Assembly: GCF_000377945.1 (NCBI RefSeq)
Contig: NZ_KB898954.1
Location: 1-33,626, forward strand
Length of the DNA stretch: 33,626 nt
Reading direction: 5' to 3'
Source of the DNA: Thioalkalivibrio sulfidiphilus
GTDB taxonomy: Bacteria > Pseudomonadota > Gammaproteobacteria > Ectothiorhodospirales > Ectothiorhodospiraceae
Position numbers and translations under genes: made by a program. Shown here piece after piece: positions 7,834-11,730 of this stretch; the first letter of the stretch is position 1; each line of letters opens with the position of its first letter. A model generated the notes under the pieces. It had not been told where the DNA came from, searched no databases, and saw nothing but the letters and a program-made list of their open reading frames with translations.

Positions 7834-8463
7834 TTGAACCCCTTCTACCAGCAGGCCCGTTTCCTGATCAGCGCCGCCAAACCCGACGGCTTCCCCCCCG
7901 ACGAGGGCATGGAGGTGGCTTTCGCCGGCCGCTCCAATGCGGGCAAGTCCAGTGCCATCAACGTGCTGTGCAACCAGCGCGCCCTGGCCCGCACCAGCAA
8001 GACCCCGGGTCGCACCCAGCTGATCAATTTCTTTGCCCTGGATGAGACCCGGCGCCTGGTGGATCTGCCCGGCTACGGCTATGCCAAGGTCCCGGAAGCC
8101 ATGCGCAGGGCCTGGCGCAAGCTCATGGAGCACTACCTGGGCGAGCGCGCGTGCCTGAAAGGGCTGGTGGTGGTCATGGACATCCGCCACCCGCTCACGG
8201 ACCACGACTGGACCATGCTGGGCTGGGCCCGGGAACGGGGTCTGGCGGTGCACGTGCTGCTGACCAAGGCCGACAAAATCCGCCGGGGCCCGGCCATGGA
8301 GACCGCCCGGCAGGTGGCCCGCGCCCTGGGCGATGCCGGCATCGAGGCCACGGTACAGCCCTTCTCGGCCCTCAAGCGGGAGGGGGTGGACGACGCCCAC
8401 GGCATCCTGGACCAGTGGCTGGGGGTAACCGCGGAACCCGGGGCCCGGGCTGCGTCGGAGTAA
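7834..8463 (+). CDS. engB: Ribosome biogenesis GTPase EngB (YihA/YsxC)
   Basis: A 209-residue TRAFAC-class GTPase needed for large ribosomal subunit assembly and normally essential. The G1 P-loop is GRSNAGKSS (residues 32-40), G3 is DLPGYG, G4 is TKAD, and the G5-like SALKREG follows. Length is usual for the family. The start is TTG at 7834, which fits the family's N-terminus and has a GGAG ribosome-binding site about 9 nt upstream; no ATG lies at a suitable place. It is convergent with polA, with two sRNA genes between. The same engB/small RNA/polA order occurs in enterics (Spot 42) and Pseudomonas (ErsA). Confidence 0.95.
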
Positions 8464-8479
8464 AGGCCTTATCGAGGCC

Positions 8480-8525
8480 AAAAAAAACCCCGGTGACCGC
8501 TCGGGGAGAGCTGGTACGACCGGGG
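8480..8525 (-). terminator. Intrinsic terminator of downstream sRNA copy
   Basis: On the minus strand CCCCGGT (8525-8519) pairs with ACCGGGG (8494-8488) and is followed by eight T residues (8487-8480). An inner stem (8508-8515 with 8496-8502, one bulge) shows a UCCCC loop, so this terminator may also present a C-rich seed. Confidence 0.82.
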
Positions 8526-8606
8526 CAGAATGGAGGCTCGACTTGGGGGAATCGAGCCATCCCGCTCAGGGGAGGAAAAGCGGGCAGCGCCGGGCTAGAG
8601 CGCTTG
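8480..8606 (-). ncRNA. C-rich-loop small RNA, downstream copy
   Basis: A structured minus-strand transcript of about 127 nt, predicted between a sigma-E-like promoter and an intrinsic terminator. Three stem-loops can be drawn (plus-strand coordinates). Hairpin 1 pairs 8586-8590 with 8600-8604. Hairpin 2 pairs 8561-8566 with 8579-8584 and has the RNA loop UUUCCUCCCCUG. Hairpin 3 pairs 8535-8541 with 8552-8558 and exposes CCCCCA. The terminator carries a fourth loop, UCCCC. It is homologous to the copy at 8722-8837: loops are kept while hairpin 3 pairs change on both sides, which is evidence for RNA structure. The position downstream of polA and convergent with engB matches Spot 42 and ErsA. 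C-rich loops recall Xanthomonas sX13, whose targets carry G-rich motifs near the start codon. No open reading frame here is convincing. Confidence 0.72.
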
Positions 8607-8611
8607 TAATG

Positions 8612-8639
8612 TCAGACAAGGGGGCTGGCGGAAAAGTTC
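8612..8639 (-). promoter_or_regulatory. Sigma-E/AlgU-type promoter of downstream sRNA copy
   Basis: On the minus strand GAACTT (8639-8634) and TCTGA (8616-8612) are separated by 17 bp, an exact fit to the RpoE/AlgU consensus. The expected transcription start falls about 6-9 nt further on, near 8607-8605, just where the first stem-loop begins. The sibling sRNA has the same -35 at the same place. A sigma-E dependence is inferred from sequence only. Confidence 0.65.
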
Positions 8640-8721
8640 TGCCCATAACGCCCAATGCCGCAAAGTGTGAAACAGTCCCGAATGCCCTTCGCGCTGGTGC
8701 CTGTTTCCTCATGCCAGCAGC

Positions 8722-8752
8722 AAAAAAAAAAGCCCCGGCGGGCGCCGGGGCT
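8722..8752 (-). terminator. Intrinsic terminator of upstream sRNA copy
   Basis: A perfect GC-rich stem, AGCCCCGGC with GCCGGGGCT (8752-8744 and 8739-8731), is followed on the minus strand by a run of T residues to 8722. It cleanly ends the upstream sRNA and shows that the two sRNA copies are separate transcription units. Confidence 0.92.
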
Positions 8753-8837
8753 CAATAAAAGGCTCAACTTGGGGGAGTCTGAGCCATCCACCCGCTCAGG
8801 GAGGGAAGCGGGGAAGCGCCGGGCTACAGCGCTTACT
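8722..8837 (-). ncRNA. C-rich-loop small RNA, upstream copy
   Basis: The upstream sibling of the sRNA at 8480-8606, about 115 nt long. Stem-loops in plus-strand coordinates: hairpin 1 pairs 8815-8819 with 8829-8833 and has loop UGUAGCCCG in the RNA. Hairpin 2 pairs 8791-8796 with 8807-8812 and has loop UCCCUCCCUG. Hairpin 3 pairs 8761-8766 with 8780-8785, with an inner ACU/AGU pairing that exposes CCCCCA. A very strong terminator follows. Loop sequences match Shine-Dalgarno-like G-rich RNA, so the likely mode is pairing with ribosome-binding sites, perhaps with Hfq; this is inference. The size equals that recalled for Xanthomonas sX13. The CCCUCCCUG loop is fully complementary to nine bases at the rpfC ribosome-binding site (17860-17868). 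Confidence 0.75.
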
Positions 8838-8840
8838 GAA

Positions 8841-8867
8841 TATGACTCACCTTCGGGATGAAAGTTC
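8841..8867 (-). promoter_or_regulatory. Sigma-E/AlgU-like promoter of upstream sRNA copy
   Basis: On the minus strand GAACTT (8867-8862) is followed after 16 bp by TCATA (8845-8841). The -35 is perfect for RpoE/AlgU; the -10 departs from TCTGA/TCAAA at one or two bases. The predicted start near 8837-8834 coincides with the base of the first stem-loop. Sequence between promoter and RNA differs from the sibling, so the shared -35 looks conserved rather than merely copied. Confidence 0.5.
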
Positions 8868-8916
8868 TCCGGCCGACGACCAAAGGCTGGATTTGTGAAC
8901 AATGCACATAAAGACA

Positions 8917-9016
8917 GTGGCAAGTGGCTAGTCTCAAGTGGCAAGGAACACCACTCACCCGCATCGCGGGGAGGGTTGGGGGCCCTTGCCACTAACCACT
9001 TGAGACTAGCCACTGC
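8917..9016. repeat. Word-repeat hairpin after polA (GTGGCTAGTCTCAAGTGGC family)
   Basis: The left arm (8917-8946) and right arm (8984-9016) are reverse complements apart from a 7-bp insertion, around a loop of about 37 bp. The right arm ends 2 bp from the polA stop codon. Twenty-six bases (8921-8946) recur identically at 33307-33332 in front of hslU. Within each arm the word CAAGTGG is repeated. The rest of the gap between engB and polA (8464-9018) is taken up by the two sRNA genes; 8881-8914 shows nothing recognisable. Confidence 0.93.
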
Positions 9017-9018
9017 CT

Positions 9019-11730
9019 TCAATGCGCATCATCCCAGTTCTCCCCCACCCCGGCCTCCACCACCAGGGGCACCTTGAGCTCGGCGGCCTGGGACATGCGC
9101 GCGCACAGCTGCTCGCGCACCGCCTCCACCGCGTCCTCGTCCACCTCCAGCACCAGTTCGTCGTGCACCTGCAGGATCATCACCGCGGGAATTCGTGATT
9201 CGCGAATCCACCGATCCACCTGGATCATGGCCCGCTTGATGATGTCCGCGGCGGTACCCTGCATGGGGGCGTTGATGGCCACCCGCTCCGCCTGGGCGCG
9301 GATCTGGCCGTTGCGGGCGTTGATGTCCGGCAGGTACAGGCGGCGGCCGAACAGGGTCTCCACGTAGCCCAGCTCCCGAGCCTGCTCACGCGTCGATTCC
9401 ATGTAGTCCTTCACCCCGGGATAGCGGGCGAAGTAGCGGTCCACGTAGTCCTGGGCGTCGCCCCGCTCGATGCCCAGCTGGCGGGCCAGGCCGAAGGCGG
9501 ACATGCCATAGATGAGCCCGAAGTTGATGGCCTTGGCGGCCCGGCGCTGCTCGCCGGAGACCTGCTCCAGGCCCACGCCGAAGACCTCGGCGGCGGTGGC
9601 CCGGTGGATGTCCTGGCCCTCGGCGAAGGCCCTGAGCAGGCCGGCGTCCCCGGACAGGTGGGCCATGATGCGCAACTCGATCTGGGAGTAGTCCGCCGCC
9701 ACCAGCCGCCGGCCCTCGGGCGCCACGAAGGCCTGGCGGATGCGCCGGCCCTCCTCGGTGCGAATGGGGATGTTCTGCAGGTTGGGATCGGAGGAGGACA
9801 GGCGCCCGGTAGAGGCCACCGCCTGGTGATAGGAGGTATGCACCCGGCCGGTGCCGGGATCGATGCGCTCCGGCAGCTTGTCCGTGTAGGTGGACTTGAG
9901 CTTGGACAGCGAGCGGTGTTCCAGGATCAGCCTGGGCAGCGGGTAGTCCAGGGCCAGCTGCTCCAACACGTCCTCGGCGGTGGAGGGCTGGCCCTTGGGG
10001 GTCTTCCTGAGCACCGGCAGCTTCAGGCGCTCGAACAGGATCTCCTGGATCTGCTTAGGTGAGCCCAGGTTGAAGGCTCCGCCGGCCACCTCATGGGCCT
10101 CCCGCTCGATCTGGCCCATGCGCTCGGCCAGCTCGTGGCTCTGGGCGAACAGGCGCTCGGCGTCCACCTTCACCCCGGTGCGCTCCATGCGCGAGAGCAC
10201 CGGCACCAGGGGCATCTCGATCTCCCGGTAGACCCGGCACTGGCCCTCGGCGGCCGATAGCTGCGGCCAGAGGTGTTCATGCAGGCGCAGGGTGATGTCC
10301 GCGTCCTCGGCGGCGTAGGGGGCGGCGTCCTCGATGCGCACCTGGGAGAAGGGGATCTGCTTCGCCCCCTTGCCGGCCACCTCCTCGTAGTGGGTGGTGC
10401 GGTAGTCCAGGTACTTCTGGGCCAGGCTGTCCATGTCGTGACGGCTGGCGGTGCTGTTCAGCACATAGGACTCCAGCATGGTGTCGTGCTCGATGCCGTT
10501 CAATTCGATGCCGTGGTTGAGCAGCACGTTGCGGTCGTACTTGAGGTGATGGCCGAGCTTCTTGTGCTTGTCGCTCTCCAGCAGGGGCTTTAAGCGCTCG
10601 AGCGTCTCGTCCCGATCCAGTTGTGTCGGCGCATCGGGGTAGTCGTGGGCGAGCGGCAGGTAGGCGGCCTCGCCGGTCTGCACGGCGAAGGAGACGCCCA
10701 CGACTTGCGCCTGCATGTAGTCCAGGCTGGTGGTCTCGGTGTCGAAGGCGAACAGCTCTGCCGCCTCCAGGCGCTTCATCCAGGCGGTCAGGGCCTTTTC
10801 GTCCAGGATCGTCTCGTAGGCCTGGGCGGGCTGGCCGGGTGTCGGGTCATCGGGTGCGGCCTGGGCTTCCTCTTCGCCCGACTCCAGTTCCTTGAGCCAG
10901 GTGCGGAATTCCAGGCGGGTGAACAGCTCCCTGAGGGTCTCCCGGTCCGGCTCGCCCAGACGCAGGGACTCGGGCGTCACGTCCAGTTCCAGGTCCCGGC
11001 GCACGGTCACCAGTTCCCGGGACAGGGGCAGGTGGCCCAGGGCGGCGCGCAGGTTCTCGCCCACCTTGCCCTTGATCTCGTCGGCGTGGGCCATGATGCC
11101 GTCGAGACTGCCGTAGGCCTGAAGCCACTTCACCGCGGTCTTGGGCCCCACCTTGTCCACACCGGGTACGTTGTCCACGGTGTCGCCGATGAGCGCCAGG
11201 TAATCCACGATCTGCTCGGGCGAGACGCCGAACTTCTCCTTCACCCCCGCGGCATCCATCTTCGTGTCGGTCATGGTGTTCACCAGGGTCACCCCCGGCT
11301 CAACCAGCTGGGCCATGTCCTTGTCGCCGGTGGAGATCACCACCTCCAGGCCGTGTTCCTTGCCTTGGCGGGCCAGTGTGGCGATCACATCGTCCGCTTC
11401 CACCCCGGGGATCACCAGGATGGGCAGGCCCATGGCCTGCACCACCTGGTGCAGAGGCTCCACCTGGGCGGCCAGTTCGTCAGGCATGGGCGGACGGTTG
11501 GCCTTGTACTCGGCGTACATCTCGTCCCGGAAGGTCTTGCCCTTGGCATCGAACACCACCGCCACGTGCTCCGGCGCATAGTCCTTGAGCAGCTTGCGCA
11601 GCATGTTGGCCACGCCGTAGACGGCCCCGGTGGGCTCTCCCTTTGAATTGGTCAGGGGCGGCAGGGCGTGGAAGGCGCGGTAGAGATAGGAGGATCCATC
11701 CACCAGCACCAGGGGCGGGGTCTTGCTCAC
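9019..11730 (-). CDS. polA: DNA polymerase I
   Basis: A 903-residue repair and Okazaki-fragment polymerase with all three domains. The N-terminal 5'-3' exonuclease spans about residues 1-290 (VLVDGSSYLYRAFHALPP; EADDVIATLA; STGDKDMAQLV). The 3'-5' exonuclease keeps its acidic residues (FDTETTSLD at 330-337, HLKYDRNVLL, and YAAEDADITLRLH), so proofreading looks active. The polymerase domain has motif A (DYSQIELRIMAHLSGD), motif B (RRAAKAINFGLIYG) and motif C (VHDELVLEV). The start is GTG at 11728-11730 with a GGAG sequence 9 nt upstream. It is convergent with engB, and two sRNA genes lie downstream on the same strand. Its stop codon abuts a word-repeat hairpin. Confidence 0.98.
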   Translation of the reverse strand: MSKTPPLVLVDGSSYLYRAFHALPPLTNSKGEPTGAVYGVANMLRKLLKDYAPEHVAVVFDAKGKTFRDEMYAEYKANRPPMPDELAAQVEPLHQVVQAMGLPILVIPGVEADDVIATLARQGKEHGLEVVISTGDKDMAQLVEPGVTLVNTMTDTKMDAAGVKEKFGVSPEQIVDYLALIGDTVDNVPGVDKVGPKTAVKWLQAYGSLDGIMAHADEIKGKVGENLRAALGHLPLSRELVTVRRDLELDVTPESLRLGEPDRETLRELFTRLEFRTWLKELESGEEEAQAAPDDPTPGQPAQAYETILDEKALTAWMKRLEAAELFAFDTETTSLDYMQAQVVGVSFAVQTGEAAYLPLAHDYPDAPTQLDRDETLERLKPLLESDKHKKLGHHLKYDRNVLLNHGIELNGIEHDTMLESYVLNSTASRHDMDSLAQKYLDYRTTHYEEVAGKGAKQIPFSQVRIEDAAPYAAEDADITLRLHEHLWPQLSAAEGQCRVYREIEMPLVPVLSRMERTGVKVDAERLFAQSHELAERMGQIEREAHEVAGGAFNLGSPKQIQEILFERLKLPVLRKTPKGQPSTAEDVLEQLALDYPLPRLILEHRSLSKLKSTYTDKLPERIDPGTGRVHTSYHQAVASTGRLSSSDPNLQNIPIRTEEGRRIRQAFVAPEGRRLVAADYSQIELRIMAHLSGDAGLLRAFAEGQDIHRATAAEVFGVGLEQVSGEQRRAAKAINFGLIYGMSAFGLARQLGIERGDAQDYVDRYFARYPGVKDYMESTREQARELGYVETLFGRRLYLPDINARNGQIRAQAERVAINAPMQGTAADIIKRAMIQVDRWIRESRIPAVMILQVHDELVLEVDEDAVEAVREQLCARMSQAAELKVPLVVEAGVGENWDDAH

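Follow-up and report, generated by a model that had tools for sequence, protein, structure and literature searches.

A tandem pair of predicted small RNAs between polA and engB of Thioalkalivibrio sulfidiphilus, probably a duplicated member of a class-wide, sigma-E-driven family

The window, by which we mean the whole stretch of DNA analysed here, covers positions 1-33,626 of contig NZ_KB898954.1 (assembly GCF_000377945.1) of Thioalkalivibrio sulfidiphilus. The sequence and the list of open reading frames place two homologous minus-strand units, A and B, between engB and polA, both oriented as polA, and three repeats (D1-D3) match unit A to unit B at a spacing of 226-230 nt. Two such units had been predicted originally from the sequence alone, with coordinates that proved correct to within a few bases. 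The features of the locus are listed below from polA to engB; R1 is a covariance model built from relatives of the two units and described further on.

9019..11730, minus strand: polA, the upstream neighbour, read in the same direction as the units (ORF; tblastn against E. coli polA and relatives)
8841..8867, minus strand: sigma-E/AlgU-type motif of copy A, GAACTT (8867-8862), 16 bases, TCATA (8845-8841) (sequence, motif scan)
8722..8836, minus strand: predicted sRNA copy A, with a putative 5' end near 8835 (Rfam, fold, R1)
8725-8836, minus strand: R1 match in copy A, 103.8 bits
8724-8814, minus strand: anti-hemB match in copy A, 51.0 bits
8814..8834, minus strand: hairpin 1 of copy A, with AGCCC in the loop (fold)
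8791..8812, minus strand: hairpin 2 of copy A, loop CCCUCCC (fold)
8761..8785, minus strand: hairpin 3 of copy A, loop with CCCCCA (fold)
8722..8753, minus strand: terminator hairpin of copy A (stem 8753-8730) and U run (consensus scan, fold)
8612..8639, minus strand: sigma-E/AlgU-type motif of copy B, GAACTT (8639-8634), 17 bases, TCTGA (8616-8612) (sequence, motif scan)
8480..8606, minus strand: predicted sRNA copy B, with a putative 5' end near 8606 (Rfam, fold, R1)
8480-8607, minus strand: R1 match in copy B, 113.2 bits
8480-8586, minus strand: anti-hemB match in copy B, 45.8 bits, under the cut-off
8586..8604, minus strand: hairpin 1 of copy B (fold)
8561..8584, minus strand: hairpin 2 of copy B, loop with CCUCCCC (fold)
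8535..8558, minus strand: hairpin 3 of copy B, loop with CCCCCA (fold)
8480..8526, minus strand: terminator hairpin of copy B with an inner hairpin (loop UCCCC), then U8 (fold)
7834..8463, plus strand: engB (yihA), the convergent neighbour (ORF; tblastn against E. coli yihA and relatives)

By sequence, copies A and B have the make-up of sibling sRNAs, that is, tandem homologous sRNAs each with its own promoter and terminator. The stretch between copy A and polA (8905-9030) is an imperfect palindrome belonging to a dispersed, REP-like repeat that has 81 matches in its own genome, some of them being both strands of one place.

Both copies are predicted to fold into unusually stable structures (copy A -55.6 kcal/mol, z -4.76; copy B -58.5 kcal/mol, z -5.09), and for neither was any of 200 shuffles equally stable. 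Each fold consists of three hairpins followed by a terminator with a U run and presents C-rich loops, in agreement with the three stem-loops and the intrinsic terminator first proposed for each unit; the AGCCC loop of hairpin 1 is less C-rich than loops 2 and 3. The terminator of copy A was picked up by the consensus terminator scan as well as by the fold, whereas that of copy B is visible in the fold and had no match in the scan, because its loop exceeds the length that the scan allows. Differences between the copies lie in the hairpin 2 loop, hairpin 3 and the loop of the terminator. Those in hairpin 3 include the paired change noted at the outset (G-C to A-U).

An RNA of this kind may also be translated: in the E. 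coli record a small peptide, spfP, is annotated inside spf, and hairpin 3 contains an ATG in each of the window copies. We rejected such a dual function for the window pair as highly improbable, since the reading frame of copy A encodes MAQTPPS only and that of copy B has no stop inside the transcript; moreover, the ATG is missing in a number of single-copy relatives.

Concerning promoters, each copy is preceded by GAACTT, a spacer of 16-17 bases, and TCATA (copy A) or TCTGA (copy B), which we take to be the sigma-E/AlgU promoter form. A promoter for each unit had been part of the original prediction, and a motif does stand before both, but its sigma-E/AlgU type had been overlooked. The promoter scan gave no sigma-70-type site in 8000-9400. 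Genes for both RpoE (310 bits against a cut-off of 236) and Hfq (104.5 against 27) are present in the genome.

When the window was compared with all of Rfam, the sole match to reach its cut-off was that of copy A to anti-hemB (RF02837; 51.0 against 49.5 bits), the same cut-off being missed by copy B (45.8 bits, E 2.1e-9). Copy A is thus an anti-hemB member by the Rfam rule, and copy B is its paralogue and a non-member by that rule. The original prediction had placed the units beside Spot 42, ErsA and sX13: the Spot 42/ErsA slot between polA and engB and the sX13-like C-rich loops stand, but the nearest Rfam family, anti-hemB, was not named there, and none of the three models it proposed for comparison reaches its cut-off at the window. 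The sX13 model (RF02232) reaches 19.3 bits where 50 are required, while those of ErsA (RF01719; cut-off 50 bits) and Spot 42 (RF00021; cut-off 80 bits) find nothing between 8300 and 9100 at E values up to 1, nor anywhere in the genome at E 0.001. By description, the copies do lie in the polA-engB gap as ErsA does, and downstream of polA with three stems and C-rich apical loops as sX13 does. Rfam P1 (RF00623) was also tried as the ErsA family and matched 0/370 genomes; this says nothing, because the controls (0/14) were silent too, and the ErsA family is RF01719.

Among 58 genomes examined for relatives in the family, that of the window included, 45 have an RF02837 match, nine of them over the cut-off. 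Of 33 regions fetched from the Ectothiorhodospiraceae, 32 contain polA and/or engB, and in 25 both genes are present. Within the window's genus, two copies are found at the locus in every one of the five genomes. Three members of this genus (L032, L033 and L034, from G001-G003) have divergent copies, with copy A facing polA and engB not found in the region; the locus has thus been rearranged within the genus. A tree of 49 copies, suggestive only with its 124 columns, places the copies A of the five genus genomes in one clade (98/97) and their copies B in another (85/90), while both copies of genus g5 group in a third (98/98). Copies A lie at distances of 0-0.02 from that of the window, and copies B at 0.009-0.35 from theirs; within the genus copy A is thus nearly constant and copy B variable, as if A were more tightly constrained.

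It may then be asked if a single copy is functional and the other a decaying or redundant duplicate. This would fit a copy B that falls under the Rfam cut-off and is the more variable of the two within the genus; yet copy B retains the promoter motif, all hairpins and the U8 terminator, is present in 5/5 genus genomes, and scores higher than A with R1 (113.2 against 103.8 bits, both copies being in the model). We therefore regard a lone working copy as unlikely, and favour two genes.

The alignment of the relatives (A1) holds 49 of 53 entries, four class members from outside the family being left out. On its 49 rows RNAalifold returned 16 pairs and no hairpin 3, and the register of the hairpin 3 stem differs between genera. 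The model R1 was built from 15 Ectothiorhodospiraceae sequences that share one hairpin 3 register, both window copies included; covariation in these 15 rows is modest, with three pairs changed on both sides and a value reached by 14 of 500 shuffles.

The reach of R1 is far wider than the family. In the class Gammaproteobacteria, taken in the GTDB sense with the betaproteobacteria included, it matches 155 of 370 genomes and 120 of 273 genera, and has no match in the other 215 genomes. We read 90 of these loci (L072-L161), five of them from the window's family with the window itself among them, and 60 hand-picked from the R1 list and so not random. polA is present in 63, engB in 67 and at least one of the two in 82, although R1 itself contains neither gene.

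A rerun of R1 on the 85 loci from outside the window's family gave 101 matches. In an alignment of these, which is fitted to R1 and so favours the structure, both partners vary in 27/27 pairs, 96.6% of cells are paired, and the covariation score is 0.544 (shuffles, 0.192; slid pairs, 0.073 at most). Lack of structural conservation in relatives had been named originally as a result that would speak against the prediction; with this fitted alignment, the relatives show compensatory change throughout. Most members of such a family would be uncatalogued: at Rfam cut-offs only 2/40 of these loci match anything, both of them anti-hemB, and at a lax threshold, among 17 loci, anti-hemB is matched in 14, ErsA in three and sX13 in two.

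The sigma-E-type motif recurs upstream of relatives. Its strict form, GAACTT-N14-19-TCNNA, precedes 26 of 55 matches (0.07 in Markov resamples) and a relaxed form 39 of 55 (0.47 in resamples), these 55 regions including L070 and L071, which lie away from polA/engB, are without the motif, are probably chance matches and were dropped from the later list. Upstream of the 101 matches from the 85 class loci, the relaxed form occurs 61 times, where its density across those loci predicts 0.13 and Markov resamples of the 100-base upstream stretches give 0.95; it is found in 37 of 56 families, 31 times at offset -31. A looser form precedes 86/101 matches (12.2 expected). The relaxed motif is missing in 40/101 matches and 19/56 families. 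Two loci of group f10 (L079 and L080) hold close relatives of the window RNA (95 bits) and have no sigma-E-type motif upstream.

The literature consulted on published sRNAs to which the pair can be likened comprised PMC5688073, PMC3521395, PMC5819304, PMC8575079, PMC7565897 and PMC5362039, and further PMC12153292, PMC6515984, PMC7074977, PMC8395346 and PMC3771888.

The nearest by letter is anti-hemB (Burkholderia RNA 7; ncS04 of B. cenocepacia), with a near-identical hairpin 2 and the same layout of hairpins and terminator. Its name comes from the gene antisense next to hemB, whereas the neighbours of the window copies are polA and engB. A pattern scan for hairpin 2 returned at least 120 stretches. 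Most of the 80 stretch titles listed are betaproteobacterial, including Burkholderia, Cupriavidus and Caballeronia, and R1 matches 79 of the 80 stretches tried among those listed, L204 being the one without a match. Among the 120 stretches listed, 78 have polA and/or engB and 42 have neither, with engB nearby in 77.

In this mostly betaproteobacterial set the upstream sequence differs. From 81 matches, less three with short upstream DNA, the relaxed sigma-E motif is present in 27/78 and missing in 51/78, and a sigma-70-like site is present in 19/78, a count that has no control; Burkholderia-type loci are mostly without the sigma-E-type motif, and many have the sigma-70-like site. This suggests, as far as upstream sequence can tell, that the promoter changed in Burkholderia-type lineages. 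At Burkholderiales-type loci L185, L186, L188, L190, L217, L225 and similar ones, a TTG...TAAATT-like upstream sequence replaces the sigma-E-type motif. In one published study, ncS04 is unchanged in the conditions of one table.

ErsA (the Pseudomon-1/ErsA RNA, RF01719) likewise lies in the polA-engB gap according to the accounts consulted, where it is described as sigma-22-dependent, as needing Hfq, and as repressing algC and oprD while also activating amrZ. Its model matches 13/370 class genomes, one of them over the cut-off, and R1 matches all 13 places, ten at E<0.001 and three at E 0.015-0.16; polA and/or engB are found in 11/13. The over-cut-off locus (L306) stands beside polA and is preceded by GAACTT-N16-TCATA, which agrees with the sigma-22 dependence described in those accounts.

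For sX13 (RF02232), the accounts consulted describe a place downstream of polA and three stems with C-rich loops, features that the window copies share; through these loops, mRNAs carrying a G-rich motif close to the start are repressed, independently of Hfq according to its authors. The sX13 model matches 15/370 class genomes, three over the cut-off; 10/15 matches coincide with R1 and 5/15 lie elsewhere. Six of them coincide with listed R1 matches (G057, G109, G157, G190, G243 and G283), and R1 also matches in place the three over-cut-off loci and G354, at 20.6-31.7 bits. Spot 42 shares the slot and orientation only, namely polA, sRNA and convergent yihA/engB in the E. coli record.

The main rival reading is that the units are real sRNAs whose likeness to ErsA and sX13 arose by convergence, the gap having repeatedly gained C-rich, Shine-Dalgarno-blocking sRNAs. 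In its favour, R1 gives true sX13 and ErsA only 20-27 bits (sX13 loci 20.6-26.5, ErsA 22.2), and the region around E. coli spf has no R1 match at E values up to 10. Weak cross-matches, such as that of ar14 in the window region (29.1 bits), moreover arise from nothing more than C-rich loops and G+C-rich terminators. However, at intermediate loci several models match one and the same site: G190 carries four copies in 754 bases according to R1, different copies of which are matched by the sX13 and ErsA models. The same promoter type also recurs at a fixed distance, ErsA locus L306 included. Convergence is in our view the less probable explanation, though it deserves more weight than that of a lone working copy. 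Across the class, the case for homology has weak scores at its far ends and is linked by intermediates and by place. Our search of a mostly open-access literature found no paper joining sX13 with ErsA, or anti-hemB with either.

The tandem arrangement had been proposed as a new variant. In fact 9/85 class loci hold two to five R1 matches (in L136 the two are ~1.5 kb apart, and in L111 the second is weak), and Nitrosospira briensis Nsp8 and Ectothiorhodospira mobilis DSM 4180 (L218) also have two each. Tandem sibling sRNAs have moreover been published already: NmsRA/NmsRB of Neisseria meningitidis are described as two tandem homologous sRNAs aimed at ribosome-binding sites, at another locus with lrp downstream. 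Because multi-copy loci recur and such siblings are published, the duplication is not new in kind, and the window pair is a recurrent form. Arrays larger than that of the window occur in L119 (G269; five copies), L122 (G190; four) and L123 (G283; four).

The reach of R1, the polA/engB neighbours, the compensatory changes, the motif excess and the places shared with the ErsA and sX13 models all argue for a class-wide family, of which the window pair is, on sequence grounds, probably a duplicated, sigma-E-driven member. Weighing on the other side are the weak R1 scores of true sX13 and ErsA, the five sX13 matches that lie elsewhere, the 215 genomes with no R1 match, the matches and families that have no motif, the modest covariation of the 15 model rows and the unchanged ncS04. 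We consider it likely that A and B are paralogous genes for trans-acting sRNAs of this polA-engB family, each transcribed through RpoE and using C-rich loops to hinder mRNAs with G-rich Shine-Dalgarno regions. Under envelope stress, RNA polymerase carrying RpoE, the sigma factor of that response, whose motif and gene are both seen, would transcribe each copy separately, and each transcript would end at its own terminator. By analogy with sX13, the NmsRs and ErsA, the conserved stems would hold out the C-rich loops, which would pair with G-rich Shine-Dalgarno regions and so hinder translation; in the accounts consulted these analogues split on Hfq, ErsA needing it and sX13 being reported without it, so that either mode may apply. 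Because their sequences diverge in loop 2, in hairpin 3 and in the loop of the terminator, and because they form two separate lineages inside the genus, A and B probably share targets and differ in strength or preference.

More broadly, and with somewhat less assurance, we lean towards a single sRNA family that would have occupied the polA-engB gap from an early point in the history of the class, with sigma-E as its ancestral control. Anti-hemB, ErsA and sX13 would be its separately named branches; Burkholderia-type lineages would have had their promoter rewired, and several lineages, that of the window included, would have expanded the family to arrays of two to five copies. For part of the class this would mean one promoter type, one structure and one slot. 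Anti-hemB, which just two sRNA papers in the literature searched mention, would gain ErsA as a likely working relative, and the two-copy form would offer a natural comparison between paralogues with a common promoter type and unlike loops.
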